64,000 bases of DNA from contig JAGABI010000067.1 in the NCBI GenBank assembly GCA_017614715.1, positions 1 through 64,000 of the forward strand, given 5' to 3'. Of the stretch, positions 6,386 to 54,722 are shown piece by piece; within the stretch, counting starts at the first letter, position 1; every line of letters begins with the position of its first letter. The position numbers and the translations under genes are program-made. This DNA comes from Bacteroidales bacterium. GTDB lineage: Bacteria; Bacteroidota; Bacteroidia; Bacteroidales; UBA932. A model generated the notes under the pieces. That model was given only the letters and a program-made list of their open reading frames with translations, searched no databases and was not told the DNA's origin.

Positions 6386-6751
6386 TTAGATTACCTCGGG
6401 GGCAAGTGAAACGATTTTCATATAATTCTCACGCAACTCACGGGCAACGGGGCCGAAGATACGGGTACCTACAACCTCACCTGCTTTTGTGAGCAGAACA
6501 CAAGCATTGTCGTCGAAACGGATATAAGAACCGTCGGGACGGCGGATTTCCTTCTTTGTACGGACTACGACTGCATTGGAAACGGTACCCTTCTTGGTGT
6601 TACCGCCGGGGATAGCGCTCTTTACAGCCACAACAATCTTGTCGCCGACAGTTGCATAACGATGGCGTGTACCACCAAGCACGCGGATGCAGAGAACCTC
6701 TTTTGCACCGCTGTTGTCAGCCACTAATAAACGTGTTTCCTGTTGTATCAT
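6386..6751 (-). CDS. rplN: 50S ribosomal protein L14
   Basis: A 121-residue protein beginning [19 protein letters not shown], with [13 protein letters not shown] and FDDNACVLL, all diagnostic of L14. It binds 23S rRNA near the L19 bridge. It is two bases downstream of rpsQ. Confidence 0.97.
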
Positions 6752-6753
6752 GA

Positions 6754-7008
6754 TTACTTAACTTTTTCTACGATTTCTACTAATCTCCAGCGTTTGGTCT
6801 TGCTAAGGGGACGGGTCTCCATAATGCGAACCTTATCGCCTTCGCTGCACTCGTTCTTATCGTCCTGTGCGACGAACTTGGTGGTTTTATTTACGAACTT
6901 GCCGTAAATGGGATGTTTCTCTTTGGTCTTGACAGCAACGACAATAGACTTGTCCATTTTGTTGCTTACCACAATCCCGACTCTTTCTTTACGAAGATTT
7001 CTTTCCAT
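6754..7008 (-). CDS. rpsQ: 30S ribosomal protein S17
   Basis: An 84-residue OB-fold protein beginning [20 protein letters not shown] with the S17 signature [20 protein letters not shown]. Full length. It lies 12 bases downstream of rpmC. Confidence 0.96.
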
Positions 7009-7020
7009 AAGTCAAATCTA

Positions 7021-7221
7021 TTATTTGTTTTCTGCCTTCTTTCTCTCTTCGAGAATAGTAATCATACGAGCAATGTCGCGGCGTGACTTAGCGATAACCG
7101 AAGTGTTGTCCAGAGGAGAGATCACGTGATTCATCTTTGTTACAGAAAGGTTGTGCTTTTCAGCCTCGATCCTCTCTTCGAGATCCTTGATGGACATCTC
7201 GCGAATTTCTTTAGCTTTCAT
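7021..7221 (-). CDS. rpmC: 50S ribosomal protein L29
   Basis: A 66-residue two-helix protein near the exit tunnel, with MKAKEIREMSIKDLEERIEA and the conserved end KSRRDIARMITILEERKKAE. Full length. It is 11 bases downstream of rplP. Confidence 0.95.
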   Translation of the reverse strand: MKAKEIREMSIKDLEERIEAEKHNLSVTKMNHVISPLDNTSVIAKSRRDIARMITILEERKKAENK

Positions 7222-7232
7222 TTCTATTCTCT

Positions 7233-7661
7233 TTAATTCATTGATTCAACATAATCCCTTCTTACAATGAACTTGCAAGAAACAGGGAGTTTCTGAGCGC
7301 CGAGCTCCAGAGCCTCTTTTGCGATCTGTGCAGGAACGCCCTCTGCCTCAAAGATGATGCGGCCGGGAGTGATGGGAGCAACAAAGCCTTCAGGGTTACC
7401 TTTACCTTTACCCATACGTACCTCAGCGGGCTTCTTAGTGTAAGGCTTGTCGGGGAACACGCGAATCCACAGATTACCCTCACGTTTCATGTGACGGGCA
7501 ATTGCCTGACGGGCAGCCTCGATCTGTTGACCGGTGAGCCAGCAGCTTTCCATTGTCTTGAGACCAAATGAACCGAAAGCGAGTTGGTTGCCCCTGCCCG
7601 CGTTACCTTTCATACGGCCTTTCTGCTGCCTTCTAAATTTGGTTTTCTTAGGTTGTAACAT
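7233..7661 (-). CDS. rplP: 50S ribosomal protein L16
   Basis: A 142-residue protein beginning [19 protein letters not shown], with [12 protein letters not shown]-like and [20 protein letters not shown] motifs, then [16 protein letters not shown]16 contacts the A-site tRNA region. It is the first gene of the ribosomal run in this window. In most Bacteroidota rpsC lies directly upstream; here about 1.4 kb of repeats and non-coding sequence come instead, with a promoter at 7738-7768. Confidence 0.97.
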
Positions 7662-7737
7662 TGTTTTGTTATTTAAATAATTGCTAATTTCCTGTCTATC
7701 AGCCCCTTAATAGCGCTAGTGGCGGAATAAGGGACTG

Positions 7738-7768
7738 CAAAGGTATACAAATTCTTCAAACCAGCAAA
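7738..7768 (-). promoter_or_regulatory. Promoter of the rplP-rpmJ operon
   Basis: Read on the minus strand this is TTTG (7765-7768), 19 bases, then TACCTTTG (7738-7745). It matches the Bacteroidota primary sigma consensus TTTG-N19-21-TAnnTTTG at every defined position. Transcription would begin near 7730, leaving a leader of roughly 70 bases before rplP. The site shows that rplP-rpmJ can be transcribed independently of the rest of the S10 genes. Confidence 0.8.
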
Positions 7769-7925
7769 CTTTTTTGAAATATTTTTGAAGATTTTCGACC
7801 AAATTTTTCTACACTGATTACGCTTAATTTCAGTTCGTTACAAACCTGCATCCCGCCGCGGTTTTGTCAGTTTGCGACAAAATGTGCACGGCAAAACCAG
7901 ACTATTGTTTTGGGGAGACATTATT

Positions 7926-8068
7926 GACATTCACCGGCCACGGGGAGGAGCGACAGGGACGGCTATGGGGTATGGCCCTGTGGTCAGTCGGGGGAATTTG
8001 TCCCGACCGGCCACCGAAAACGAGAAAAGACCACGTCCATCGACACATTATCGTGGCCGGTGAATGTC
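7926..8068 (+). repeat. 143-bp palindrome-ended repeat, family A copy 1
   Basis: The ends are a perfect 16-bp inverted repeat: GACATTCACCGGCCAC at 7926-7941 and its complement at 8053-8068. Inside are two smaller stems, ACAGGG/CCCTGT and TCGGG/CCCGA. The same 143-bp unit recurs at 8342-8484 and 12427-12569. A conserved tail reading about GATAAGATTGAGAGTTGTGG follows each copy. The form is that of a BIME/REP or MITE-like non-autonomous element, and copy 3 abuts the RAYT promoter. Confidence 0.85.
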
Positions 8069-8100
8069 GTGGCGGGGTGATAAGATTGAGAGTTGTGGCA

Positions 8101-8130
8101 GTATGCAGGCAGTTATTCTCGGCGGGGCCG
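8101..8130 (+). repeat. Partial copy of repeat family B
   Basis: The 30 bases match the first 30 bases of the fuller family B region at 8221-8250 (GTATGCGGGCGGTTATCCTC) with a handful of substitutions, then diverge. It directly follows the tail of family A copy 1, so that composite unit is truncated here. Confidence 0.6.
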
Positions 8131-8224
8131 TTGTCAACATGTCGCGAGTGATGCTAGCCGCTGTTGTTCTTTGCGTGCTGAGGCGGGGCGGGCGCGGTTG
8201 TCGCCGGCAAGGGTGAGGCGGTAT

Positions 8225-8297
8225 GCGGGCGGTTATCCTCGGCGGAGCGAGGAGGGCCGGCAGTAGAGCCCCCCGCAGCTCCGACGGGAGATAACCG
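8225..8297 (+). repeat. Repeat family B, copy 1
   Basis: A 73-bp GC-rich element whose ends pair (CGGTTATC at 8230-8237 with GATAACCG at 8290-8297). The core reads GGCGGAGCGAGGAGGGC and AGAGCCCCCCGCAGCTCC. Related copies are at 8585-8653 (inverted), 12651-12723 and, partly, 28874-28937. No coding potential was recognised. Confidence 0.75.
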
Positions 8298-8341
8298 TCT
8301 CCTTCCCGGATGGCCCCTTTTCCCGGACATACCTCTTTCCT

Positions 8342-8484
8342 GACATTCACCGGCCACGGGGATGGGCGACAGGAACGGCTATGGAGTCTATCTCTGTGGT
8401 CAGTCGGGGGAATTTGTCCCGACCGGCCACTGATATCGAGGAAAGACCACATCCATCGACACACTATCGTGGCCGGTGATTGTC
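8342..8484 (+). repeat. 143-bp palindrome-ended repeat, family A copy 2
   Basis: Same length and same ends as copy 1: GACATTCACCGGCCAC at 8342-8357 and its complement at 8469-8484 with one mismatch (GATTGTC for GAATGTC). The internal stem ACAGG/CTGT and the stem TCGGG/CCCGA are retained although the loops differ. The 85 or so bases after it, up to GCGGGCGGTTATCC near 8556, match those after copy 3, so A plus B behaves as one composite unit. Confidence 0.85.
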
Positions 8485-8584
8485 GTGGCGGAGCGATAAG
8501 GTTGAGAGTTGTGGCGCCCGGAGCGGTTTTCATCGGCGGGTCGTCATGATTGATTTGCGGGCGGTTATCCCCGAATGCGTTGCA

Positions 8585-8653
8585 GTTACCTCCCGGCTGA
8601 GCTGCGGGGGGCTCTACTGCCGGCCCTCCTCGCTCAGCCGAGGATAACTGCCG
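8585..8653 (-). repeat. Repeat family B, inverted copy
   Basis: On the minus strand this matches family B copy 1 closely (CAGTTATCCTCGGC, GAGCGAGGAGGGCCGGCAGT, AGAGCCCCCCGCAGCT). A plus-oriented first part of B at 8556-8569 lies just before it, so two opposed B units meet here. Confidence 0.7.
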
Positions 8654-8761
8654 CAACACTCAGCCGATGGCCAAACCATCATTCACCTGCTACTGAAAAT
8701 TCACGGGTTATCGCCTCCAGGGCATTCTCTCTTGGCATAATTATCTCACCGTGTCGGTTAC

Positions 8762-8792
8762 TTGACTAATCTCTGCAAAATGATTACTTTTG
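8762..8792 (+). promoter_or_regulatory. Promoter of the folded RNA upstream of the methyltransferase
   Basis: TTGA at 8762-8765, 19 bases, then TACTTTTG at 8785-8792, a full match to the -7 consensus and a partial match at -33. Transcription would start around 8798-8800, right at the 5' end of a strongly folded stretch. Confidence 0.65.
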
Positions 8793-8797
8793 TAGTG

Positions 8798-8997
8798 TTG
8801 CCCGGTGTTTGGGCGACAGGACATATTGAGAATTAGCATTTGCTATTTATTCGGTTGCCCCTGAAACCTAGGAAATTTCAAGTCGCATTACTCGAGTAAG
8901 TCAGTAGATGCCTGCGCTTCGCGTGGGCATGACTTATTCTAATGCAGGGCTTCCTAGGGCCTCTAGAGCGTGGATAAGTGATGTCCACGCTTTTTTG
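8798..8997 (+). ncRNA. Candidate structured small RNA with its own promoter and terminator
   Basis: About 200 bases fold mostly into one long rod: CCTAGGAA (8867-8874) pairs with TTCCTAGG (8951-8958), GCATTA (8885-8890) with TAATGC (8940-8945), GAGTAAGTCA (8894-8903) with TGACTTATTC (8930-8939), and ATGCC with GGCAT around a CGC-TTC-GCG tip. A smaller 5' hairpin (GTTGCCC/GGGCGAC) precedes it. It ends with GCGTGGA/TCCACGC followed by TTTTTT (8968-8996), a textbook intrinsic terminator. The size, rod shape and asymmetric internal loop recall 6S RNA, but I cannot confirm that family; a cis leader for the downstream methyltransferase is the main alternative. Confidence 0.55.
8968..8996 (+). terminator. 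Intrinsic terminator of the folded RNA
   Basis: The stem GCGTGGA (8968-8974) and TCCACGC (8984-8990) encloses a 9-base loop and is followed at once by six T residues. It lies 54 bases before the methyltransferase start, so either the RNA is a separate transcript or readthrough controls the methyltransferase operon. Confidence 0.75.
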
Positions 8998-9049
8998 GTC
9001 TTAGGCGTAACCCTCCTCGAATAAGCAAGTGCCGTAAGAAGCGCAGCTT

Positions 9050-9640
9050 ATGGCCAACAACAGCAATCTTGGCGCCGCGAAGGCTGCCAAGAACGATGAG
9101 TTTTATACTCAGTATGCTGATATCCAGAAGGAGGTCAACGCGTACCTGGAGTATAATCCCGACACTTTCCGTGACAAGACGGTTCTATTGCCGTGCGACG
9201 ACCCCGAGTGGAGCAACTTCACACGGTTCTTTGCCCAGAACTTCGAGCGGCTGGGGCTCAAGCGGCTCATCAGTACCTCGTATGCGGTGGAGAGCAAAAA
9301 GTACAAGGACTACGAACCGACTCTCTTTGAGACGGTCAGCCCATTGTTTGACCCCGGAAAGACCCGCATTAAGGGGAAGATCTTCGAACTCACCCGCGAC
9401 ACCAACCAGAACGGGCGCATCGACATCGACGACCTCGAGTGGCACTACTTGGAGGGCGACGGCGACTTTCGCAGCCCGGAAGTATGCAAGTTGCGCGACG
9501 AGGCCGATATCATCGTAACGAATCCGCCGTTTAGTTTGTTTCGTGTATTTCTTAACTGGATTGTATCAGCTGGTAAACAATTCCTAATTATTGGGAATAT
9601 CAATTGCGTAACATATAAAGAAGTGTTCCCTTTAATATAA
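9050..9640 (+). CDS. EcoRI-type adenine DNA methyltransferase, N-terminal part (split gene)
   Basis: 196 residues matching the N-terminal half of the EcoRI-family adenine-N6 methyltransferases. LLPCDDPEWSNF (about residues 46-57) belongs to the cofactor-binding region and NPPF (158-161) is the catalytic motif IV. M.EcoRI-type enzymes are normally one chain of 300-odd residues; here the frame stops at 9638-9640 just after CVTYKEVFPLI. The next frame begins with ATG at 9640 and continues the homology. The junction contains TAATATAATG; removing two bases of the AT/TA run would rejoin the frames as FPLI-MTNQIW. It could be a real frameshift mutation, a sequencing error, or two coupled subunits. 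It begins an operon with the DUF262-HNH gene. Confidence 0.8.
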   Translation: MANNSNLGAAKAAKNDEFYTQYADIQKEVNAYLEYNPDTFRDKTVLLPCDDPEWSNFTRFFAQNFERLGLKRLISTSYAVESKKYKDYEPTLFETVSPLFDPGKTRIKGKIFELTRDTNQNGRIDIDDLEWHYLEGDGDFRSPEVCKLRDEADIIVTNPPFSLFRVFLNWIVSAGKQFLIIGNINCVTYKEVFPLI

Positions 9641-10218
9641 TGACTAATCAAATTTGGACGGGCTTGCGTTTCAATAAACGCGATGGCGGGAAAAACATGA
9701 CATTTCTGGTGCCAGATAGTTACGAGATGACGGGAACAGAATTGTATATTGATGAGAAGGGACGAAAATATATCAGTGTGGCTGGAACGGGCTGGTTTAC
9801 TAATCTGGAGCACGGACGACGCCACGAACCGTTACAGCTAATGACAATGAAAGACAATTTGCGATTTAGCCGTCGTAAAGAGATTCGTGAGAAAGGGTAT
9901 CTTCACTATGAGAATTATGACGCTATAGAAATACCGTTTACGGATGCTATACCATCTGATTATGATGGTGTAATGGGTGTTCCTATCTCGTTTATAGATA
10001 AATATTGCCCTGAGCAGTTCAAGATTGTTGGCATGTGTGAAAATCTTGACTTGTATGGTTTAAAGACCCGCATATTTACTTCTGAAGAATGTCGTGCTGC
10101 GTACAAAAGTAAATTTGGCAAAACGGGTACCTATGACTTGAATGCTGCCGGGGTAATAAGACTGGAAGATGGACGTTTGGAGAAAGTATATCAAAGAATT
10201 CTAATCCAAAAGATATGA
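9640..10218 (+). CDS. EcoRI-type adenine DNA methyltransferase, C-terminal part (split gene)
   Basis: 192 residues that read as the continuation of the preceding methyltransferase: [31 protein letters not shown] and FDKYCPEQF-like [14 protein letters not shown] are typical of the second half of the EcoRI-type family. Its ATG overlaps the upstream stop by one base (TAATG), which would allow reinitiation, so a two-chain enzyme is possible. The frame is open upstream of this ATG for several codons, as expected if the split arose by a small insertion. Its own stop overlaps the DUF262-HNH start (ATGA, 10215-10218). Much lower GC than the first half. Confidence 0.78.
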
Positions 10219-11387
10219 TAGCAAAACTCATCCAGGACTGGACCATCGGCGACATTTGCAAGGGGTTCCAGTATAACGAATATGAAGGCAAGGGGCTCTA
10301 TGGCCTGTCCGGTCAACTGACTATTCAGCCGGAGTTCCAGCGCCACTATCTCTATGCCGAGAACGGCGGCAAGAAAGAGGTTGACGTGATCCAGTCGGTG
10401 CGCAACGGATATCCCTTGGGTCTCATCTATTTCTCCAAGGTGGGAGAAGACCGCTACGAAGTGCTGGACGGACAGCAGCGCATAACCTCGCTGGGCCGCT
10501 TCATCACTGAGAAGTTTGCATGGATAGACGCAGACGGCCGTCCATGGTACTTCTCTTCTCTCGACCCCTCGGAGCAAAAGATGTTTCTGGAAACACCCTT
10601 GCTGATATATGTCTGCGAGGGAACTGAGAAAGAGATAAAAGACTGGTTCCGCACCATCAATATCGTTGGTATTCCCCTTAACGCGCAGGAGGTGCTCAAC
10701 GCCGTTTATTCCGGCCCGTTTGTAACCCACGCCAAAGAAGAGTTCTCCAACTCCAACAATACCAACATCAACAAGTGGAGTTGCTTTATCCCGGGCAGCG
10801 CCAAACGACAGGACTATCTGGCAACAGCCCTCGAATGGGTCAGCCGCGGTCATACAGAAGAGTACATGGCGGCCCATCGCTACGACGGCAGCATCCAGGA
10901 GATGCGGGCGTACTTCACCTCCGTAATCGATTGGATCACATCGGTATTCGACATTGCACCCGAGAAAGAGATGTGCGGGCTCAAGTGGGGCGAGTTATAT
11001 GAAAAGTATCACACCAAGGCCTATAACCCAGCCGCAGTCGCTGCCAAGGTGCGTGAACTCTACGAAAACTATTACGTAAAAGAGAAGAAAGGTATCTTCG
11101 AATATATCCTCGGCGGATGCCAGGAACCCCGCCTGTTAAATGTCCGCGTCTTTGACGAGCCCACCAAGAAGGCCGTTTACGCCACCCAAACCGCAGCCGC
11201 AGAATCCTCCGGCCTCTCGAATTGCCCTTTGTGCGCCGTCGGACACGATGCCAACCGCACCCGTATCTGGAAACTCTCCGAGATGGATGCCGACCACGTT
11301 GCCGCCTGGAGCCGCGGCGGCGAAACCACAATCGATAACTGCCAGATGCTCTGCCGTACCCACAACCGGGCAAAGGGCAACCGTTAG
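10215..11387 (+). CDS. DUF262 (GmrSD/ParB-like) protein with C-terminal HNH nuclease domain
   Basis: 390 residues. The N-terminal part is a DUF262 domain with IQPEFQRHY (about 37-45) and the signature DGQQR (85-89), which in GmrSD-like proteins binds and hydrolyses nucleotide. The C-terminus (335-390) is an HNH nuclease: CPLC zinc pair at 337-340, the catalytic DADH at 358-361, N375, and CRTHN at 380-384 ending in KGNR. It overlaps the methyltransferase by four bases, so the genes are translationally coupled. By known families this would be a nuclease whose target is judged by methylation, either a restriction partner of the methyltransferase or a modification-dependent enzyme. It converges with the RAYT gene, one base apart. 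Confidence 0.85.
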
Positions 11388-11388
11388 G

Positions 11389-12357
11389 CTACAGCCGGTC
11401 TTTGACCTCGTCGAAGACAAGTCCGCAGACCCGGGCTATTTGCCTTGCAGAACTGTTGTAGCGCGACTTGAGCGTACGGGCCAGTTTGAGCCGGCGCACC
11501 GTATCCAGCCCAGTCAAGCTCTCTGTACCGAACATCTCCCTGCACAACTCTTTCCGATGCTGCCGCATTTCCTGTATAGGTATCGACAAGTGCGAAACAG
11601 TCCCCTCCCGGGACTCAACATCGTCTTCTCTGCTCGAGCACAAGAAATAATTAAAAGCTCTGCACGTTTTGAAAAGTCTTTCCACCACTTCGCTTGCGAC
11701 ATACTCGCCGGGAAAAACCATCTGACCTATCATCCGGGCAATCTGATTTGCATGCCGCCTGCTTTTCAACACCTGTCGTTGTTCTCTCGCAGTCATCTGT
11801 TTCGTAGATAGTTCGCCCTCTTGGCCACAAAGCCATTGAGGCGAGCACCACAATCCCGGCCTTTTGAAATATAACGGTCCGCTGGACCATGGATAATCCA
11901 GAGCCGTATACATTAAACCTCCCACCGGAGCATTCTTAAGGGTGTAACAGATAGCTGTCTTCAGATAAACATCGTCGGTGATGGCCTGCCGGCTTATCGG
12001 AATATCAGCCAGCCTGTTGGACAGATGATGTTCTGTGGCCAAGTACTGTGATGTCCTTCGCAGGTATTCATGCATGAAGCGGGTGCTCTCTTCCAGTGTC
12101 CCGTAAATGATGAAATGCACATGAGTATCCATGAGCGTAAAAGCGAGAATCACCACCTCGAAACTCTGGCCAGTGATAAAAATGCGGTTCATCCCGTTGA
12201 CGAAATCATTTTCATCATAGAACATCACATCCAAGGCATTTCCATCTGTGCAGAAATGCCAGCAGTTACGAACATGGTTTATACGTCCCTTCACAAAGGG
12301 AAGGCTTAGCCCTAGATCAGAATCGATCTGCGCAAGCAGCCTCTGACTAATCTTCAT
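11389..12357 (-). CDS. REP-associated tyrosine transposase (RAYT, Y1 HUH family)
   Basis: 322 residues from the ATG at 12357. The HUH motif is THVHFIIYG, followed by a helix with the likely catalytic tyrosine in AICYTLKNAPVGG and the RAYT hallmark YPWSS; a long C-terminal helical region follows. RAYTs are domesticated IS200-like enzymes that act on short palindromes near their own gene. A TTG-initiated extension to 12417 is open, but a perfect promoter lies between 12393 and 12425, so the ATG at 12357 is preferred. The 143-bp repeat copy 3 begins only 70 bases upstream. No insertion-sequence ends of its own were seen, which fits RAYT and not an active IS200. Confidence 0.85.
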   Translation of the reverse strand: MKISQRLLAQIDSDLGLSLPFVKGRINHVRNCWHFCTDGNALDVMFYDENDFVNGMNRIFITGQSFEVVILAFTLMDTHVHFIIYGTLEESTRFMHEYLRRTSQYLATEHHLSNRLADIPISRQAITDDVYLKTAICYTLKNAPVGGLMYTALDYPWSSGPLYFKRPGLWCSPQWLCGQEGELSTKQMTAREQRQVLKSRRHANQIARMIGQMVFPGEYVASEVVERLFKTCRAFNYFLCSSREDDVESREGTVSHLSIPIQEMRQHRKELCREMFGTESLTGLDTVRRLKLARTLKSRYNSSARQIARVCGLVFDEVKDRL

Positions 12358-12392
12358 CACAATACTCCGCCGCCGCTTATGGCTGCTCACTA

Positions 12393-12425
12393 CAAATGTA
12401 GCATTATTGCCCGGCAATCATCAAA
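12393..12425 (-). promoter_or_regulatory. Promoter of the RAYT gene
   Basis: On the minus strand: TTTG (12422-12425), 21 bases, TACATTTG (12393-12400), a full consensus match. The predicted start of transcription near 12386 decides for the 12357 start codon. The -33 box touches the edge of repeat copy 3 (12427-12569), so binding at the repeat could affect this promoter. Confidence 0.75.
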
Positions 12426-12426
12426 A

Positions 12427-12569
12427 AAAATTCACCGGCCACGAGGAGGAGCGACAGGGACGGCTATGGGGCAACAGCCTGTGGTCAGTCGGGGCAATTT
12501 GTCCCGACCGGCCACGAGAATAGGGCAAAGACCCCACCCATCGACACACTATCGTGGCCGGTGAATGTC
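12427..12569 (+). repeat. 143-bp palindrome-ended repeat, family A copy 3
   Basis: ATTCACCGGCCAC at 12430-12442 pairs with GTGGCCGGTGAAT at 12554-12566; the outer three bases have changed to AAA on the left. Length, internal stems and the following tail match copies 1 and 2. It lies immediately upstream of the RAYT promoter, the usual place for a RAYT's cognate REP. Confidence 0.85.
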
Positions 12570-12650
12570 GTGGTGGGGCGTCAAGATTGAGAGTTGTGGC
12601 GCCTGGAGCGGTTTCCATCGGCGGGGCGTCAAGATTGATTTGTGGGGGTT

Positions 12651-12723
12651 GCGGGCGGTTATCCTCGGCGGAGCGAGGAGGGCCTCCGGCAGAGCCCCCC
12701 GCAGCTACGACGGGAGATAACCG
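12651..12723 (+). repeat. Repeat family B, copy 3
   Basis: GCGGGCGGTTATC (12651-12663) and GATAACCG (12716-12723) bound a GC-rich core almost identical to copy 1 (GGCGGAGCGAGGAGGGC, AGAGCCCCCCGCAGCT). It follows family A copy 3 at nearly the same distance as in copy 2. The stretch 12570-12650 between them is the shared linker; nothing else was seen there. Confidence 0.75.
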
Positions 12724-12755
12724 CGCTGAGCCGTATGCGTGGCAGCTATGACAAA

Positions 12756-13859
12756 TTAGCGTTCAAAAGATGGTTGGAGGAGATAGAGGCCGGCGTTATG
12801 TTCTTCCCGGGCACGCGTAGCAAGCTGACCGATGGGGGACTCTGCGCTGCGACCTACATCAATGATGAGACCTCGCCTCATTGCGGGGAAGGCCGTGAGC
12901 ATAGGGACATCGCCGTTGCTGTCACCAGCCAACAGCAGTGGATCTGCACCGCCATACGAAGGGGCCATATAAGCCTTGATGCAATCTATCTTACCCTCCT
13001 TGTTGGGTTGTTTATATTCAGAGTCGAATTCCGGTACGATTATGTCCCCGGGGACAAAGCGCAGGCCGAACACCCGTTCCGGCTCAATCCCGAATCCCAG
13101 GTCAGCATCGCAGGCCAGCACCTCAACAATCATTTCCAAAGATGCTGAGCAGATATATACGTCAATGCCAGCCTCTTCCAGGCATTTATACAGGTCTTTC
13201 ATTTCCGGGGAGACCCAGATGCCGCGCTGTACGTCTCCAGACCAGCGTCCATCGGGTGAGGTCCAGCGCTCTACGGCAAGAAGCTCTATGCCGAGGTGTT
13301 CCGAGATGGCATCGCGGATAAGAGCATCGGCTTCTGCACGGGTAAAACCAGCCAGCAGGCCGGGCTGCCAGAGATACGAAATCCAGCTGCCGTACTGCTC
13401 GTCCATCTTCGTGAGAAAGATGTTCATACGGGCGCGGAAGTCCAGATATTCGTCTGATTTTCTGATATCTTCTATGCTTTCCCCGCCATCCAGCCTGGAC
13501 TTCAGGGTCTCGTACTCGGCCGACATGGCCCGTCCCATCTCTGCGTAGCTAAGTCCCGTGACGCCCATCTGCTCCTCCGGAGAAGGGATGCCGTCAAGGA
13601 AATCGTGCGTGGGAGCATCGGCATATCGCAGGTGCTCTATCTGATAGACCCACAGGGCCTGTGATATATCGTGAACAATGGAGGTCTTGTCAAAGTCAAA
13701 TACAGCATAAGCGTCCTTCCCGGGATTGGCCATCAGATTGTTGAGCGACTCACGTACCTCCGGGGCCCATTTGCCCTCCTGAAGAGCTACCGTCTGCCTG
13801 CCATGGCTGCAAGAGGCCACAATCAAGAGAAAAAGAACACCTCTCAGAATTCTTCTCAT
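12756..13859 (-). CDS. Secreted HAD-family phosphatase (lipoprotein)
   Basis: 367 residues from the ATG at 13859, chosen because MRRILRGVLFLLIVASC gives a lipoprotein signal with the cysteine at 17; the frame also opens 30 bases earlier. HAD motifs are all present: DFDKT (about 55-59), ICSAS in the middle, a lysine in KEGKIDC, and AGDSNGDVPML near the end. The closest recognisable relatives are phosphoserine- or phosphocholine-phosphatase-like enzymes. Its place after a glycerophosphodiesterase hints at periplasmic release of phosphate from lipid head groups, but the substrate is unproven. The C-terminal end reaches the repeat region. Confidence 0.8.
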   Translation of the reverse strand: MRRILRGVLFLLIVASCSHGRQTVALQEGKWAPEVRESLNNLMANPGKDAYAVFDFDKTSIVHDISQALWVYQIEHLRYADAPTHDFLDGIPSPEEQMGVTGLSYAEMGRAMSAEYETLKSRLDGGESIEDIRKSDEYLDFRARMNIFLTKMDEQYGSWISYLWQPGLLAGFTRAEADALIRDAISEHLGIELLAVERWTSPDGRWSGDVQRGIWVSPEMKDLYKCLEEAGIDVYICSASLEMIVEVLACDADLGFGIEPERVFGLRFVPGDIIVPEFDSEYKQPNKEGKIDCIKAYMAPSYGGADPLLLAGDSNGDVPMLTAFPAMRRGLIIDVGRSAESPIGQLATRAREEHNAGLYLLQPSFER

Positions 13860-13904
13860 AACACGGATATTTGAAGCGGCCTCACACACCGCAATTACGG
13901 AGAG

Positions 13905-14723
13905 CTAGAACTCTACCTGCACCCACTTCATGCCGTCTTTGAGGGCTTTCTTGGCCTCGACGGGGATGTCGGTGCAGACATTGTCGGCACCCAGGCTGAT
14001 GCCCAGGGCAACGTCGTTCATGTTGTCGGAGGGCCAGAGGGTCACCTTGATTCCGTCCAGGTGGGCCTTATCCACAGCCGTGCGGGAGGTACCGGGCATC
14101 TTTGCGGCCAGGCGCTTGATGCCAAGTTCTTTAACCTTCGCGATTGCGGCATCGTTGAGTGGTTCGTCCGTGATGAACATAAGGTCGGCGTCGGAATGTT
14201 TCAGCTTGACGTAAATGAGCGGACGCTGGTCAAAAGATGTTATTACAAAAGTAGAGCCGGCAGGCTTCACCGACATAATCTTGTTATAGACCTCGTCGCA
14301 CATCTTGCATACCAGATCCTCGCTATAAAGCGCCGGGTCGGTCTTGAGCTCAAACTCAACATATTCTATATCTCCCTTGCTTTCAATCCATTTGATGAAG
14401 TCGTCAAACATCACCAGACGGTTCCCCTTGAGGGTCTTGGCGTTCTTCACCACCTTGGTCTTGCTGGTCTCCACTGCCCCTTTGGCGTTGGTTGTGCGCT
14501 CCAGGGTGCTGTCGTGCATCAGCACAAGGTCACCCTCTTTGGTCATCCTGATATCTACCTCAAAGCCGCGGATACCGGCCTTATATGCACCGTTGAAGGC
14601 TTGCATGGTGTTCTCGTCAAACTCTGCGCGGCCGCCGCGATGGGCAAATACGCGCACCTGCTGCTGGGCAAAAACACCAAATGACAACATGGTAAGAATG
14701 GTTATGGTCAATAGTCTTTTCAT
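13905..14723 (-). CDS. Secreted glycerophosphodiester phosphodiesterase
   Basis: 272 residues with a signal peptide (MKRLLTITILTMLSFGVFAQ). The GDPD barrel signatures are visible: HRG at 28-30, ENT at 37-39, FEVDIRMT with E55 and D57, and LMHDSTLERT with H70. These enzymes cleave glycerophosphodiesters to an alcohol and glycerol 3-phosphate, here outside the cytoplasm. It is 24 bases downstream of the DUF4294 gene and 45 upstream of the HAD phosphatase, so the two hydrolases may act in sequence. Confidence 0.88.
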   Translation of the reverse strand: MKRLLTITILTMLSFGVFAQQQVRVFAHRGGRAEFDENTMQAFNGAYKAGIRGFEVDIRMTKEGDLVLMHDSTLERTTNAKGAVETSKTKVVKNAKTLKGNRLVMFDDFIKWIESKGDIEYVEFELKTDPALYSEDLVCKMCDEVYNKIMSVKPAGSTFVITSFDQRPLIYVKLKHSDADLMFITDEPLNDAAIAKVKELGIKRLAAKMPGTSRTAVDKAHLDGIKVTLWPSDNMNDVALGISLGADNVCTDIPVEAKKALKDGMKWVQVEF

Positions 14724-14747
14724 AGCTTTTTATATTTTTATAGATTG

Positions 14748-15506
14748 TTATTTTGATTTCTCCTTTTTTGCACGACGGGCAGCACGGCCGCGGGCTTTGT
14801 TCTCTTCCAGCGACTTGTAATAGGGTTCACGGAACTTCTCCGGGATTAATATCTCCGGGCGAGGCTTGCCAAAGAGCCACAGGTACAGGTCGTCAAACTC
14901 GCCATAGTTCCACGCCTTGCAGAGCTCTTCCAGATCGGCATCCTCCCCTTCCGGCTCGTAACGCTGCTTGATATCACCTTTCAGGAGTTTTGCCACCCCC
15001 TGCCAGAAACCGGCGTTGACCCTTCCAAGATACTTGCGGATAATGTCGTAAGGGGGCATCCCCACCTCGCGGTCTATCAGACGTATCATCATAAGTCCCT
15101 GGTTAAGGGTTAGCTGCCGGAACAGCGGCTCAAAGTTGTGGAGCAGTTCGTCCTTGATGCTGGCAAGGTATTTTTCCTGCTGACGCTCGGTATAACCGCG
15201 AGCGGCAAACAGACTGTCGGTCTCCCGGATGGTCTGCGCAATGAACAGCGCGTACGGATAAGCCTTGCTGAAGTTGTGCACACGACGGGCGCGGGCACGC
15301 CATTGCCGCTTTGTCAGATATGTCTTGGGGTGGATGCGTGCCGGCATGATCTCATCCACATAGATGGTGTCACCCCGCTCGTTAATCTCGTACCTGAGGA
15401 TGCTCTGCTGGCTGGAATACTCCTGGGCAAATAGCTGTGGAACCGCAGCCAATGCCAGCGTCAGCACCCAGAGGGTGCGCAGGGATATGTACCGTAACCG
15501 AGTCAT
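14748..15506 (-). CDS. DUF4294 family exported protein
   Basis: 252 residues from the ATG at 15506, two bases past the radA stop; an ATG 24 bases earlier would overlap radA. A signal peptide (MTRLRYISLRTLWVLTLALA) precedes the DUF4294 region, with IMPARIHPKTYLTKRQWRARAR, AYPYALFIAQTIRE and LIDREVGMPPYDIIR. The tail is highly charged and basic (KARGRAARRAKKEKSK). DUF4294 proteins are widespread in Bacteroidota with no established activity. Confidence 0.82.
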   Translation of the reverse strand: MTRLRYISLRTLWVLTLALAAVPQLFAQEYSSQQSILRYEINERGDTIYVDEIMPARIHPKTYLTKRQWRARARRVHNFSKAYPYALFIAQTIRETDSLFAARGYTERQQEKYLASIKDELLHNFEPLFRQLTLNQGLMMIRLIDREVGMPPYDIIRKYLGRVNAGFWQGVAKLLKGDIKQRYEPEGEDADLEELCKAWNYGEFDDLYLWLFGKPRPEILIPEKFREPYYKSLEENKARGRAARRAKKEKSK

Positions 15507-15508
15507 TT

Positions 15509-16882
15509 CTATTTGAATACAAGCCTGCAAAGGGCAGGTATATCCGCCACAGGTACAACTTCAATGCCACTTTGGGAGAAGGCCCCCTCCTTGTTGAATG
15601 AGGAGATGTATATCCGCTTGAAGCCTATCTTCTCCGCCTCCGCTATCCGGCGCTGTATCTGGCTCACCGGACGCAGCTCCCCGCTGAGGCCAATCTCTGC
15701 ACAGAAGCAGCTCTCCAGCGGAACGCTGATGTCAAAGTTGCTGGCCAGGATTGCCACCGCCACCGCCATGTCGCACGCCGGATCACTTACACGGAGCCCT
15801 CCAGCCACGTTCAGGAATACATCTTTGGCAGCCAACTTGAAGCCGGCACGCTTTTCAAGCACCGCCAGCAACATGTTCATGCGGCGGGCGTCAAAACCGT
15901 TGGCGTTGCGCTGCGGCATACCATACGCCGCCGTGCTTACCAGCGCCTGAATCTCTATCATGAAGGGGCGCGTGCCATCCATCACCGAGGCGACGGCGAT
16001 GCCGCTCAGATTGTCCTGATGCATCGGGATGAGTATTTCAGAGGGGTTCAGCACCTCGCGCAGCCCGGCGCCGGTCATCTCGAACACCGCGAGCTCTGCG
16101 GTGCTGCCAAAGCGGTTCTTGATGCTGCGCAGCAGGCGATACGCGCCGCGCGTATCCCCTTCAAACTGCAATACCACGTCCACTATATGCTCCAGTACCT
16201 TGGGGCCGGCAATGGTCCCGTCTTTTGTGATGTGGCCAATCAGTATTACCGGAGTGCCGCTCTCCTTGGCGTAGCGCAGCAGGCGGGAGGCGCACTCACG
16301 CACCTGCGACACACTGCCGGCAGAAGAGTCGAGCGCATCACTGTATATGGTCTGGATGGAGTCCACCACCAGCAGGTCGGGCGCCACCGCAGCCGCCTGC
16401 TCCAGGATATTCTCAAGTATTGTCTCAGAGAGGATGCTGCACGAGGAGGCATCGCCCCCAAGGCGCATGGCGCGCATCTTTATCTGGCGCGGACTCTCCT
16501 CTCCCGAGACGTAGAGTGTTTTCAAAGATGGACAACCCAGGGGAATCTGCAGGGCCAGGGTAGATTTGCCTATTCCGGGCTCTCCCCCCAGCAAAATCAT
16601 GGAGCCCTCCACCATGCCTCCGCCCAGCAGGCGGTCAACCTCGTTCAGACCTATGGAGAAGCGGTTTTCAGAGGTGAGGGATATCTCCTCCAGGGTCAGC
16701 GGGCGGGCGTCAGATTCGGTAGCCACAAAAGCCCGGCTCCGGGCGCCGGAAGAGGTCTTCTTATCTCTTTTAGGCTCCTCCACCATCGTATTCCACTCAC
16801 CGCAGGCGGGGCAGCGTCCCATCCACTTGGGACTCTCGTTCCCGCACGAAGTGCAAAACCAGGATGTGTGTTGTTTTGCCAT
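15509..16882 (-). CDS. radA: DNA repair protein RadA
   Basis: 457 residues. An N-terminal zinc finger (CTSCGNESPKWMGRCPAC, residues 10-27), a RecA-like ATPase with Walker A GGEPGIGKST (99-108) and DLLVVDSIQT as Walker B, the RadA-specific KNRFG motif, and a Lon-protease-like C-terminal domain. RadA drives branch migration in recombination. Only one base separates it from prmC, and it is followed by DUF4294. Confidence 0.95.
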   Translation of the reverse strand: MAKQHTSWFCTSCGNESPKWMGRCPACGEWNTMVEEPKRDKKTSSGARSRAFVATESDARPLTLEEISLTSENRFSIGLNEVDRLLGGGMVEGSMILLGGEPGIGKSTLALQIPLGCPSLKTLYVSGEESPRQIKMRAMRLGGDASSCSILSETILENILEQAAAVAPDLLVVDSIQTIYSDALDSSAGSVSQVRECASRLLRYAKESGTPVILIGHITKDGTIAGPKVLEHIVDVVLQFEGDTRGAYRLLRSIKNRFGSTAELAVFEMTGAGLREVLNPSEILIPMHQDNLSGIAVASVMDGTRPFMIEIQALVSTAAYGMPQRNANGFDARRMNMLLAVLEKRAGFKLAAKDVFLNVAGGLRVSDPACDMAVAVAILASNFDISVPLESCFCAEIGLSGELRPVSQIQRRIAEAEKIGFKRIYISSFNKEGAFSQSGIEVVPVADIPALCRLVFK

Positions 16883-43763: not shown

Positions 43764-44696
43764 ATGTTCAACCTGTTATACGTAACATGGGACGTCAACC
43801 CTGTCCTGTTGCAGATAGGCCCCCTGGCCATACGATACTATTCTTTACTGTTCATAGCCGGCTTCCCGTTCGGCTATTGGCTGTTTACCAAGTTCTACAA
43901 ACGCGAAGGGAAGAATACCGACCTGCTTGAGCCGCTGCTGTATGCCCTGCTGATTGGCACCATCGTGGGCGCCCGCCTGGGACACTGCCTGTTTTACGAG
44001 CCGGAATATTACTTCAAAAACCCCGCTGAGATAATCAAGGTGTGGCACGGAGGCCTTGCCAGCCACGGCGGCGCAATCGGCGTGCTGCTGGCCATCTTCT
44101 GGTATGTGGGCCGCTACGGCAAGAAGAATAACTTTGACACCATGTGGCTGCTGGACCGACTGGCCATAGCCATCTGCTTCGCAGGGTGCTGCATCCGCCT
44201 GGGCAACCTGTTCAACTCTGAGATATTCGGCGGTGCCACCACCCTCCCCTGGGGCTTCAAATTTGTCCGCTCCGCACAGTGGGTTGCAGAATATGGCCCC
44301 ACAATTAATCCGCCGGACGGCGCAGCCTGCCATCCCACCCAGATTTACGAGGCGCTCAGCTATCTGCTGCTGGGGCTCTGTCTCCTTTGGGCATACTGGA
44401 AAAAGGGAGAGAAAGTCTATAAAGGTACTTTGTTCGGCGTGTTCCTGATAGTATTGTTCGGGATGCGCTTCCTTATAGAGTTCATCAAAAACGACCAGGT
44501 AGATTTTGAGAGCGGAATGCTCTTGAATATGGGGCAGCTGCTCAGCATACCGTTTGTTGTGGCGGGTCTCGTGATACTTGTGCTGAGCCTCGTTAAGAAG
44601 CGCCCCATGCTGATGATTACTCCAAAGGAGGAACCCAAGGAGAAAGGTCCCCGCATGTCTCACGCAAAGCGGATGGCCGCTGGAATGAAACAGTAG
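43764..44696 (+). CDS. lgt: Prolipoprotein diacylglyceryl transferase
   Basis: 310 residues with about seven membrane spans. SHGGAIGVLLAI, the GRxGNF-like IRLGNLFNSEIFG and HPTQIYEALSYLLLG mark Lgt. It attaches diacylglycerol to the lipobox cysteine, the first step in lipoprotein maturation. The C-terminal 35 residues are a basic cytosolic tail. It is the last gene of the long plus-strand run. Confidence 0.95.
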   Translation: MFNLLYVTWDVNPVLLQIGPLAIRYYSLLFIAGFPFGYWLFTKFYKREGKNTDLLEPLLYALLIGTIVGARLGHCLFYEPEYYFKNPAEIIKVWHGGLASHGGAIGVLLAIFWYVGRYGKKNNFDTMWLLDRLAIAICFAGCCIRLGNLFNSEIFGGATTLPWGFKFVRSAQWVAEYGPTINPPDGAACHPTQIYEALSYLLLGLCLLWAYWKKGEKVYKGTLFGVFLIVLFGMRFLIEFIKNDQVDFESGMLLNMGQLLSIPFVVAGLVILVLSLVKKRPMLMITPKEEPKEKGPRMSHAKRMAAGMKQ

Positions 44697-44702
44697 AATC
44701 TG

Positions 44703-44841
44703 TTTGCTAGTGATTAACTTCTATCTTTATGGCTTGTTTTGGCGCTTTTATCAGCCTTCTTCAGTTACATAGGAACCCCTATGCGCCTTCATCAGGCCGT
44801 CAAAATCACTCAAAACAGCCTCATAAATCTTATCGCAAACC
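44703..44841 (+). repeat. 139-bp dispersed element, copy 1
   Basis: This stretch from TTTGC to about CGCAAACC recurs on the minus strand at 53309-53447 with the same length and roughly 85-90% identity by eye. The core from about 44755 to 44797 is identical: CCTTCTTCAGTTACATAGG then AACCCCTATGCGCCTTCATC. CATAGG-AACC-CCTATG is a perfect hairpin, and CCTTCTTCAG/CCTTCATCAG is a direct repeat across it. It fills the gap between lgt and the next gene, 19 bases before that ATG. Confidence 0.8.
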
Positions 44842-44859
44842 ACTAACAAACAGATTCTT

Positions 44860-45771
44860 ATGATTCTTATAGAGAGTCCCTCACCCGCCTGGAAGGATTA
44901 TGAACTGATAGACTGCGGCGACTTTTGCAAGCTGGAGCGGTTTGGCAAGTATGTCACAATCCGCCCCGAGCCCAAGGCGCTCTGGAAAAAGAGCATGTCC
45001 GATGACGAGTGGAACCGTCTGGCCCATACCCGGTTTATCCCGGGCGGCGGCTTCTCCACCGCCGGGCAGCAGGACAGCGGCTCCTGGAAAACCCTCAAAC
45101 GGATGGAAGAGCAGTGGCCGGTAACATATCAGCCGCTGGGCCTCACGCTCCGGATGGGCATGACCTCCTTCAAACACGTGGGTGTGTTCCCCGAGCAAGC
45201 CCCCAACTGGGAGTTCATCTATGAGAATACATCGCGCCTTGTTGCCAATTCAGGCGGCAAGCCGGTCAAAGTTTTGAATCTGTTCGCTTATACCGGCGGC
45301 GCCTCGCTGGCAGCCCGCAAGGCGGGGGCGGATGTCACCCACCTCGACTCCGTGAAGCAGGTCGTAACCTGGGCCCGCCAGAACATGGAGCTCAGCCGCA
45401 TGGATTCCATCCGCTGGGTAGTGGAAGACGCCCTCAAGTTTGTCCGTCGCGAGGCGCGTCGCGGCAATAAATATCAGGGGATTATGCTGGACCCTCCCGC
45501 CTACGGCCACGGCCCCGACGGCGAGAAGTGGAAACTGGACGATTGCCTCTACGAGATGCTCTGCCTGGTGGGAGAAATCCTTGCCCCTAAAGAGAGTTTC
45601 CTGATACTTAACCTGTACGCCAACGGCTACTCCTCCCTGCTGTCGGAGACGGCCGTTCGCAGCGCCCTCAACCCGGGCAAAGGAGCCGACGTGGACAGCG
45701 GCGAACTGGTCTTGACCGACCGTTTTGGCAAGATATTGCCACTAAGCGTGTTCACGCGGGTGAGATTGTAG
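44860..45771 (+). CDS. SAM-dependent methyltransferase (RlmI/RsmC-like, probably rRNA)
   Basis: 303 residues. An N-terminal region (LIDCGDFCKLERFGKYVTIR) precedes a Rossmann methyltransferase with motif I LNLFAYTGGASLAARKAGA and motif IV LDPPAYGHG. These are shared with class I methyltransferases of the RlmI type that act on 23S rRNA. The PUA domain of RlmI is not evident, so the exact target is uncertain. It is preceded by the 139-bp element and followed by the pgk promoter, whose -33 box overlaps its stop codon. Confidence 0.8.
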   Translation: MILIESPSPAWKDYELIDCGDFCKLERFGKYVTIRPEPKALWKKSMSDDEWNRLAHTRFIPGGGFSTAGQQDSGSWKTLKRMEEQWPVTYQPLGLTLRMGMTSFKHVGVFPEQAPNWEFIYENTSRLVANSGGKPVKVLNLFAYTGGASLAARKAGADVTHLDSVKQVVTWARQNMELSRMDSIRWVVEDALKFVRREARRGNKYQGIMLDPPAYGHGPDGEKWKLDDCLYEMLCLVGEILAPKESFLILNLYANGYSSLLSETAVRSALNPGKGADVDSGELVLTDRFGKILPLSVFTRVRL

Positions 45772-53272: not shown

Positions 53273-53308
53273 AATGATAACTTATCTTATTAGAAGCTTT
53301 TTTGTAAT

Positions 53309-53447
53309 GGTTAACGATTAGATTTATTGGGATGTTTTGAGTGATTTTTCCGACCTGATGAAGGCGCATAGGGGTTCCTATGTAACTGAAGAAGGTTGGG
53401 AAAAGCGCCAAAACAGGACATAAAGATTGAAGTTAATTATTGCAAAA
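53309..53447 (-). repeat. 139-bp dispersed element, copy 2
   Basis: The minus strand matches copy 1 (44703-44841) over the whole length, with an identical central stretch holding the CATAGG-AACC-CCTATG hairpin. As in copy 1 it sits after a stop codon and just before the next co-directional gene, in the same orientation relative to transcription. Confidence 0.8.
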
Positions 53448-53453
53448 GAGCTT

Positions 53454-54722
53454 CTACAATTTCCATGGAGCGCGCATAGGCTGGTAAACCAGACGGTTGG
53501 CGGCATCGTCATTGATGAATTCCTGCTTTTCGGAGTCGAAGTAGAGGGTGCGGCCAAGCTGCAGCGCCACAGCACCGATGTTGACCAGGGTGCAGCTGCG
53601 GTGGCCGTTGATCTCGTTGAGGGCAAATTTCTTGCGGGTACGTACGCACTCCAGGAAATCGGTCTCCTGAGGCAGCGGATCGGGGAAGTCTGCAAGTTTA
53701 TCCTTCCAACCGGGGATATCGCATACGAAATTGTTGTAAACGTTGCCGTTGGGGCCCTGGATATACGGGGTCTTGGGGTCGCCGAAGTCTTCGCCCCAGA
53801 GGACGATCTGGCAACCGTCGGCATAGGTGTATTTAATCTCGCGCCAGGTACCGGCAGCGTCGTAATGCTGCTGGGGAGCGTCAATCTCAACCTTTACAGG
53901 GCTCTCGTCGTCCTTGCCCAGCAGATACTGGACGGGGTCGAGGTAGTGCTGGCCCATGTCGCCAAGTCCGCCGGCATCGTAGTCCCAATAGCCGCGGAAG
54001 GTGTCGTGGCAGCGGTGCTCGTTATACGGCTTGTAGGGTGCGGGACCCAGCCAGAGGTCGTAATCGAAGTAGCTGGGGATGGGCTGGGGATCAAGATGCT
54101 CCTTACCTACCCAGAAGAACTTCCAGTCAAAACCGGTGTGCTTGGAAACGGTCACTTTGAGGGGCCATCCCAGCAGACCGCTCTGAACGAGCTTCTTCAG
54201 GGGAGCCACCTCTGTGCCGAGGCCGTAGAAGGTATCCTCAAAGCGGAACCAGGTGTTAAGTCGGAAAATGGTGTTGTAGCGCTTCATCGCCTCAACAACT
54301 CTCTTACCCTCGCCAATGGTACGGGTCATGGGCTTTTCACACCATACATCCTTGCCAGCCTTGGCAGCCTCGATGGACATTATTGCATGCCAGTGAGGCG
54401 GGGTGCAGACGTGTACGATATCCACGTTGGGGTCGTTGATCAGGTCCATGAAGTCGTGGTAGCAGGCTACCTGGCCGAATCCGGCCTCTTTGGCCATTTT
54501 CTCGCCCCTGTCCAGACGGGTCTGGTCAACGTCGCAAACTGCAACCAGACGGTCAGGCATGTGGAAGTGGTGGCCGCGGCCGATGCCGCCGAAGCCGATG
54601 ATACCCTTTGTCAGTTGGTCGCTGGGAGCAATGTAACCTTTACCGCCGAGCACGTGGCGCGGCAAGATGGTGAACGCAGCCACAGCCGCTGTTCCCTTGA
54701 GGAATTGTCTTCTGCTTGTCAT
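53454..54722 (-). CDS. Tat-exported Gfo/Idh/MocA family oxidoreductase
   Basis: 422 residues. A clear twin-arginine signal (MTSRRQFLKGTAAVAAF) and a Rossmann domain (GIIGFGGIGRGHHFHM) with KAGKDVWCEKPMTRTIGEGK carrying the EKP motif; the C-terminal part holds the substrate-binding sheet. It is the first gene of the five-gene cluster. With the second oxidoreductase it could cover oxidation and re-reduction at C3 of a sugar. Separated from the next gene by 181 bases that contain the 139-bp element, so the cluster may have two transcription units. Confidence 0.88.
   Translation of the reverse strand: MTSRRQFLKGTAAVAAFTILPRHVLGGKGYIAPSDQLTKGIIGFGGIGRGHHFHMPDRLVAVCDVDQTRLDRGEKMAKEAGFGQVACYHDFMDLINDPNVDIVHVCTPPHWHAIMSIEAAKAGKDVWCEKPMTRTIGEGKRVVEAMKRYNTIFRLNTWFRFEDTFYGLGTEVAPLKKLVQSGLLGWPLKVTVSKHTGFDWKFFWVGKEHLDPQPIPSYFDYDLWLGPAPYKPYNEHRCHDTFRGYWDYDAGGLGDMGQHYLDPVQYLLGKDDESPVKVEIDAPQQHYDAAGTWREIKYTYADGCQIVLWGEDFGDPKTPYIQGPNGNVYNNFVCDIPGWKDKLADFPDPLPQETDFLECVRTRKKFALNEINGHRSCTLVNIGAVALQLGRTLYFDSEKQEFINDDAANRLVYQPMRAPWKL

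Follow-up and report, generated by a model that had tools for sequence, protein, structure and literature searches.

Gene Organization of the Locus

The window, meaning the whole stretch of 64,000 nucleotides analysed here, lies on C46, a contig of a rumen Bacteroidales MAG (2.0 Mb in 69 contigs) named G000. On its reverse strand (11389..12357), it carries a gene for a RAYT-like HUH/Y1 protein, which we characterized by homologue alignment, fold, and dN/dS, together with three copies of a composite palindrome and an R-M cassette. The open reading frame (12417..11389) would code for 342 residues from a TTG at 12417, adding a 20-residue leader; alignment with relatives placed the start at the ATG at 12357, giving a protein of 322 residues. 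A locus 89% identical to that of the window was found in a sheep-reticulum MAG.

The palindrome, approximately 143 bp long and given here without a strand, is found at 7929..8071 (copy 1), 8345..8487 (copy 2), and 12426..12572 (copy 3, also delimited as 12430..12569). Copy 3 is a four-arm, REPIN-like unit that adjoins the RAYT promoter, and copies 1 and 2 are 87 and 84% identical to it, respectively, with an overall range of 84–87% and one shared orientation for the three. The two further copies that an earlier note on this DNA had placed within 4.5 kb of the RAYT gene are thus confirmed, starting at 7929 and 8345. Searches in which each element was queried singly, on which all our element counts rest, returned no full copy other than these three from the 2.0-Mb genome, and one isolated central hairpin, on contig C35. 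In copy 3 the central hairpin, composed of an arm and the AAATT core, spans 12480..12516; it also stands alone elsewhere in G000, G006, G007, and G021. Folded as single-stranded DNA, copy 3 reaches a z-score of −5.2, with none of 200 shuffles as good, and an Rfam scan of positions 7600–13000 gave nothing credible.

Other repeats surround these copies. A second palindrome family, with a TTATCCTCG...CGGGAGATAA hairpin, is present at 8233..8294 (+), as an inverted copy at 8582..8652 (−), and on the far side at 12659..12720 (+). Its TTATCCTCG-(N)-CGGGAGATAA feet are fixed and asymmetric and its stems variable; the exact pattern occurs in 10 of 26 congeners, with G023 alone having 17 copies, and in none of 74 other genomes, and members of the family lie beyond the window in G001, G004, G005, G006, G008, G014, G015, G020, and G023. 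A further self-complementary repeat of about 152 bp (L118:1453–1610, on contig C1 of G023) has dozens of copies in G001, G004, G005, G015, and G023, where it forms mosaics with both palindrome families. Elsewhere in the window, a 194-nt inverted repeat (44668–44861 and 53289–53482) is 80% complementary, its halves being 8.4 kb apart.

The RAYT gene is preceded by Bacteroidales-type promoter-like boxes (12393..12425, reverse strand), TTTG at 12425–12422 and TACATTTG at 12400–12393, separated by 21 nt. The edge of copy 3 (GTGAAT) lies at about 12430, so the element does adjoin the promoter, as the earlier note had it, with a gap to the −33-like box of about four to five bases rather than two. 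A −7-like box, TAnnTTTG, was found in 21 of the 32 homologues with a placeable start, mostly near −43. This conserved layout of element and promoter suggests that the RAYT may be autoregulated through the element, whose binding beside the promoter may repress the gene. In most homologues the RAYT leader (12357–12393 in the window) carries GAGCAGCCAYWAGCGGCG directly 5′ of the start codon, possibly a regulatory motif of the 5′ UTR.

Motifs and Predicted Fold of the RAYT-like Protein

In an alignment of 33 homologues, His79, His81, Tyr138, Tyr155, and Trp157 are invariant, and the HUH motif (His79, His81), Tyr138, and the Y155-P-W157-S-S motif as a whole are invariant or near-invariant. The protein therefore carries the HUH pair and the catalytic tyrosine of RAYTs within a Y1 core (H79/H81, Y138), and the HUH, tyrosine, and YPWSS motifs read in the earlier note from the sequence alone are borne out. 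The window protein itself has a sub-threshold match to Pfam Y1_Tnp (E 0.011–0.021) and a weak one to NCBIfam REP_Tyr_transpos (E 0.05). Among its 33 homologues, 24 match Y1_Tnp, 27 match REP_Tyr_transpos (best E 5.6e-9), and three match IS200. Searches of PHROGs and PADLOC with the RAYT gave no match.

The AF2 model of the protein (pLDDT 85.5) has the E. coli TnpA-REP from the RAYT-REP complex (PDB entry 4er8) as its first-ranked Foldseek match, with an E-value of 1.3e-3. In a VIA comparison 4er8 reached a Z-score of 12.1 over 150 residues, followed by IS608 at 7.8, with ISDra2 at 7.8 or below. The predicted fold is thus nearer to TnpA-REP than to TnpA-IS200, as expected for a RAYT. A profile search of PDB sequences with the RAYT gave no RAYT match, the relation being visible by fold comparison only. 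The window protein also possesses a long C-terminal helical extension.

The dN/dS ratio of the RAYT gene is 0.10 between G000 and its ortholog in G006, and 0.09 and 0.05 in two other types, resembling the value for a neighbouring gene; such low ratios (0.05–0.10) indicate that the protein is under purifying selection. The homologues in its own genome, on contigs C69, C44, C23, and C15, are about 54% identical to it or less, and each genome has one RAYT gene per type, not the several near-identical copies of an autonomous mobile unit of the IS200/IS605 kind. In 394 other genomes across the phylum no match to the RAYT reached E 1e-40, so the clade looks narrow.

Architecture of the Composite Palindromes

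Most homologues of 48–61% identity have a composite palindrome of approximately 140–160 bp upstream of the RAYT gene. In most of those with at least 48% identity, it lies at about −75 to −330, and its end is 75–100 bp from the start codon in many loci and 150–180 bp in type B. Many loci have a downstream copy in direct orientation, often 83–97% identical. Three close homologues (L032, L039, and L061) have no clear palindrome upstream.

Twenty elements could be aligned. They have in common a foot, AACCCGAAATTCRC ... GYGAAATTTGGGTT (AACCC..TTCRC), and an AAAAT/AATTT core, and each contains an arm, X, four times in the order X-X′-core-X-X′, the arm sequence differing between RAYT types. Because of this order, the element can adopt two folds, either a pair of side hairpins or a single long hairpin that has a central stem. 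For the nested fold, 89.8% of the cells in the alignment are paired versus 67.1% after shuffling, with a covariation score of 0.572 versus 0.167 (0 of 500 shuffles as high), and slid control structures pair in 35–45%. The arms keep their pairing by compensatory change: two-sided changes were observed at 23 of 29 pairs in the nested fold and at 17 of 20 in the side-hairpin fold, so that covariation supports the side-hairpin fold as well as the nested fold. The element is therefore organized as a REPIN is: two REP-like units in inverted orientation (X X′ core X X′) make up a larger hairpin, and covariation is seen in both folds.

In other respects the elements depart from classical REPs. The GT[AG]G head is not conserved, being present in at most 5 of the 20 elements at any column, versus 17 of 20 for TTCRC. 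The gene is not flanked by inverted REPs: whole units, each itself an inverted pair, bracket it in direct orientation, with, for example, 92–97% identity in direct versus about 62–64% in inverted orientation where both were found. The number of elements per genome, about 1–12, is also far below the more than 100 copies of classical REPs.

Co-occurrence of RAYT and Element Types in the Genus

We examined the linkage between RAYTs and elements in 26 genomes of the genus and 74 genomes outside it, a close RAYT being one of at least 48% identity, present in 16 of the 26 congeners and absent from 10. Window-type elements, full or partial, occur in four congeners (G000, G006, G021, and G007). Two of these, G000 and G006, are the two congeners with the orthologous RAYT; G021 has one full and three partial elements with no cognate RAYT detected, and G007 has one hairpin only. 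The type-A element is found only in G001, G004, G015, and G023, exactly the type-A RAYT genomes (4 of 26; Fisher p about 7e-5 on the assumption, which fails here, of independent genomes). The type-B element is present in six genomes, five of them with the type-B RAYT and the sixth 74% complete, and the L028 element was found only together with its RAYT.

A search for the foot-to-foot pattern gave 35 composites in 10 of the 26 congeners, none in the 74 genomes outside the genus, and none with the reversed pattern as control. Of the 16 congeners with a close RAYT, 10 have composites, versus none of the 10 without. Sixteen of the 35 have a close RAYT within 2 kb, and for the other 19, which are dispersed, the distance exceeds 2 kb. 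For the dispersed type-B elements of G023, empty-site comparisons yielded no clean insertion site, the surrounding intergenic DNA being a mosaic of several repeats.

The arms follow the RAYT type. They are 33–44% identical between the elements of paralogous RAYTs within one genome and 67–95% identical between those of orthologous RAYTs across genomes; the paralogue on contig C69 of the window's own genome, for example, has an element with a different arm. The palindromes are thus specific to the RAYT they flank, as in known RAYTs. RAYT and arm similarity correlate with r 0.76 overall, driven by the close types, and among nine diverged representatives the correlation is not significant (r 0.27, p 0.15). 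Host phylogeny and MAG completeness are confounders for the sharing of types between RAYT and element.

This partial tracking of host subclades would also be expected if the palindromes were host intergenic elements, such as terminators, co-inherited with a nearby RAYT that does not act on them. The second palindrome family, which lies in the same intergenic regions without an assigned RAYT, and the presence in G021 of the element without the gene are compatible with such an origin. We nevertheless consider it quite improbable, given the 16 composites close to a RAYT, the two-sided bracketing, the paralogue-specific arms inside one genome, and the complete lack of composites where a close RAYT is absent (10 congeners).

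The association of RAYT and REPIN-like element is well supported. The earlier note had made the link depend on copy counts in genomes with and without the RAYT, and these mostly uphold it, with no composite in the RAYT-lacking congeners and three other types agreeing as well or better; on the other side, G021 and G007 keep window-type elements, G021 doing so without a RAYT at the same site. As for the note's view that the RAYT is the cognate of the palindromes, the identity of the protein and the association both hold, and binding and cleavage are predicted by analogy with known RAYTs.

Variation at the rplP-HAD Site

The R-M cassette (8778..11387, forward strand) occupies the interval between copies 1–2 and the RAYT gene. 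It is composed of an EcoRI-type methyltransferase, split in two ORFs (9050–9640 and 9640–10218), and a GmrSD_N-HNH endonuclease (10215–11387). The methyltransferase is a single ORF of 387–395 residues in G004 and G024, and the split seen here (9050–10218) reflects either a frameshift or an assembly error; the endonuclease gene is intact. The cassette abuts the RAYT stop codon, where homology to other loci stops. Relatives of 87–88% identity sit elsewhere in the genomes of G001, G004, and G024, so the cassette was probably a separate arrival.

In G021 the left flank (window 6665–8068) is followed by one element, about 180 bp, and the right flank (window 12738–15735), with neither RAYT nor R-M at the rplP-HAD site. 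In G006 the locus is split over two contigs: the left one carries the flank, two elements, and a diversity-generating retroelement (DGR; RVT_1, bAvd-like), and the right one carries the RAYT with elements and the other flank. This DGR, which occupies the corresponding chromosomal position in a sister species (L111:6446–9700, on contig C55 of G006), has a reverse transcriptase, a bAvd-like accessory protein, and an Lcl_C-type target. Both flanks are joined in G021 and present in G006 on the two contigs, and a chimeric origin of the window contig at the RAYT locus was accordingly considered and dropped. On the left side of the site, a ribosomal operon segment (7233–7900) begins with rplP after a promoter-like region; rpsC/rplV, the usual genes, are not directly upstream, and this junction is common to G006 and G021.

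The right flank of G000 is 86.4% identical to that of G021 versus 83.4% to that of G006. We therefore prefer to think that recombination between direct copies removed the RAYT in G021, an insertion in G000 and G006 being the possible alternative. The gene-less site of G021 and the direct copies bracketing the gene at many loci could also be taken to mean that the RAYT and its two flanking composites form an autonomous IS200/IS605-like transposon, which moves whole with the composites as its ends. Such a transposon seems improbable: there is a single gene copy per type and genome, under strong purifying selection, the flanking sequence is often common to the orthologues of a type, full composites are also found without the gene, and the fold is closer to RAYT than to IS200.

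The different contents of this one site in three species (R-M in G000, DGR in G006, nothing in G021), with the R-M relatives of G001, G004, and G024 (87–88% identity) sitting at unrelated loci, raise another alternative, namely that the brackets are a platform for cargo exchange, the site gaining and losing cassettes through direct-copy recombination or RAYT action. This is very improbable, as the stretches read beside the R-M copies in these three genomes contain no window-type composite or RAYT gene, the RAYT and DGR of G006 are on separate contigs, and most other RAYT loci have no cargo.

Discussion

Taken together, the gene probably encodes a RAYT (a HUH/Tyr protein of the TnpA-REP type) belonging to a diverged clade in the Bacteroidales, with the 143-bp element as its cognate REPIN-like substrate. 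Close relatives of the RAYT in related species mostly come with a matching palindrome of their own, so gene and element look like a genuine enzyme-substrate system that uses unusual repeats. By extension from E. coli-type TnpA-REP, the RAYT would recognize the hairpins where DNA is single-stranded, as on the lagging strand, and its tyrosine would nick at a foot and then rejoin the strand; the paired-hairpin unit may occasionally be copied or moved to other intergenic sites, while the RAYT gene would stay in place.

The REPs by which RAYTs have been defined flank the gene in inverted orientation, carry a GT(A/G)G head, and are abundant (PMC2817692); REPINs are paired REPs (PMC3116915). The window system shares with the RAYT/TnpA-REP systems of E. 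coli, Pseudomonas, and Stenotrophomonas (PMC2817692, PMC3116915, PMC8266576) the HUH and tyrosine fold, a YPWSS-like motif, RAYT-specific palindromes that bracket the gene, paired inverted hairpins as the unit, and purifying selection. It differs by a protein of about 322 residues with a C-terminal helical extension and by elements of ∼140–160 bp with four arms, an AACCC..TTCRC foot, no GT[AG]G head, direct brackets, and about 1–12 instead of more than 100 copies per genome. With IS200/IS605 TnpA (IS608, ISDra2), the RAYT shares the HUH/Tyr core fold and, as predicted, hairpin substrates; its fold is nearer to RAYT, no TnpB was seen beside the gene, multi-copy identical elements are absent, and the C-terminal extension is long.

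Bacteroidetes RAYTs flanked by “atypical secondary structures” are already known as subclass 2.6 of TnpA-Y1 (PMC6006769), which makes the taxonomic novelty less than the earlier note supposed when it saw a Bacteroidales version as extending the concept. Subclass 2.6 resembles the window clade in its Bacteroidetes hosts, its atypical flanking structures with further genomic copies, and an SS tail motif. Its published motifs are NH[LIV]H, WQ, and YIH[QN]NP, with a median of 179 residues (PMC6006769, Table 1), whereas the window clade has mostly DTHVH, no WQ, CYTxKNAP, and about 322 residues. The clade conforms to the RAYT concept but fits none of the subclass motif sets of that study. The TIRYT genes of TIRtrons, RAYT-like genes with long repeats (PMC3733652), are similar in being bracketed by long, partly self-complementary repeats of low to moderate copy number that are unrelated to GTAG REPs; their TIRs, in groups that we compared by description, are inverted, some with GGGGWSAS, whereas the brackets of the window clade are direct, with AACCC..TTCRC feet. 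Tentatively, the clade may represent a separate RAYT subclass, in which the AACCC..TTCRC foot replaces GTRG, the four-fold arms vary, a genome holds several orthogonal pairs, and direct brackets allow loss of the RAYT or a swap of cargo such as R-M.

Why bacterial genomes retain RAYTs over long times is not understood. In the RAYT literature cited here, recognition biochemistry is confined to Proteobacteria (PMC8266576). This Bacteroidales genus possesses five or more RAYT types, every one of them paired with a separate element built to a common plan. It thereby offers natural cognate and non-cognate pairs, which would make substrate recognition, the function of the foot as a guide, and any benefit to the host testable.
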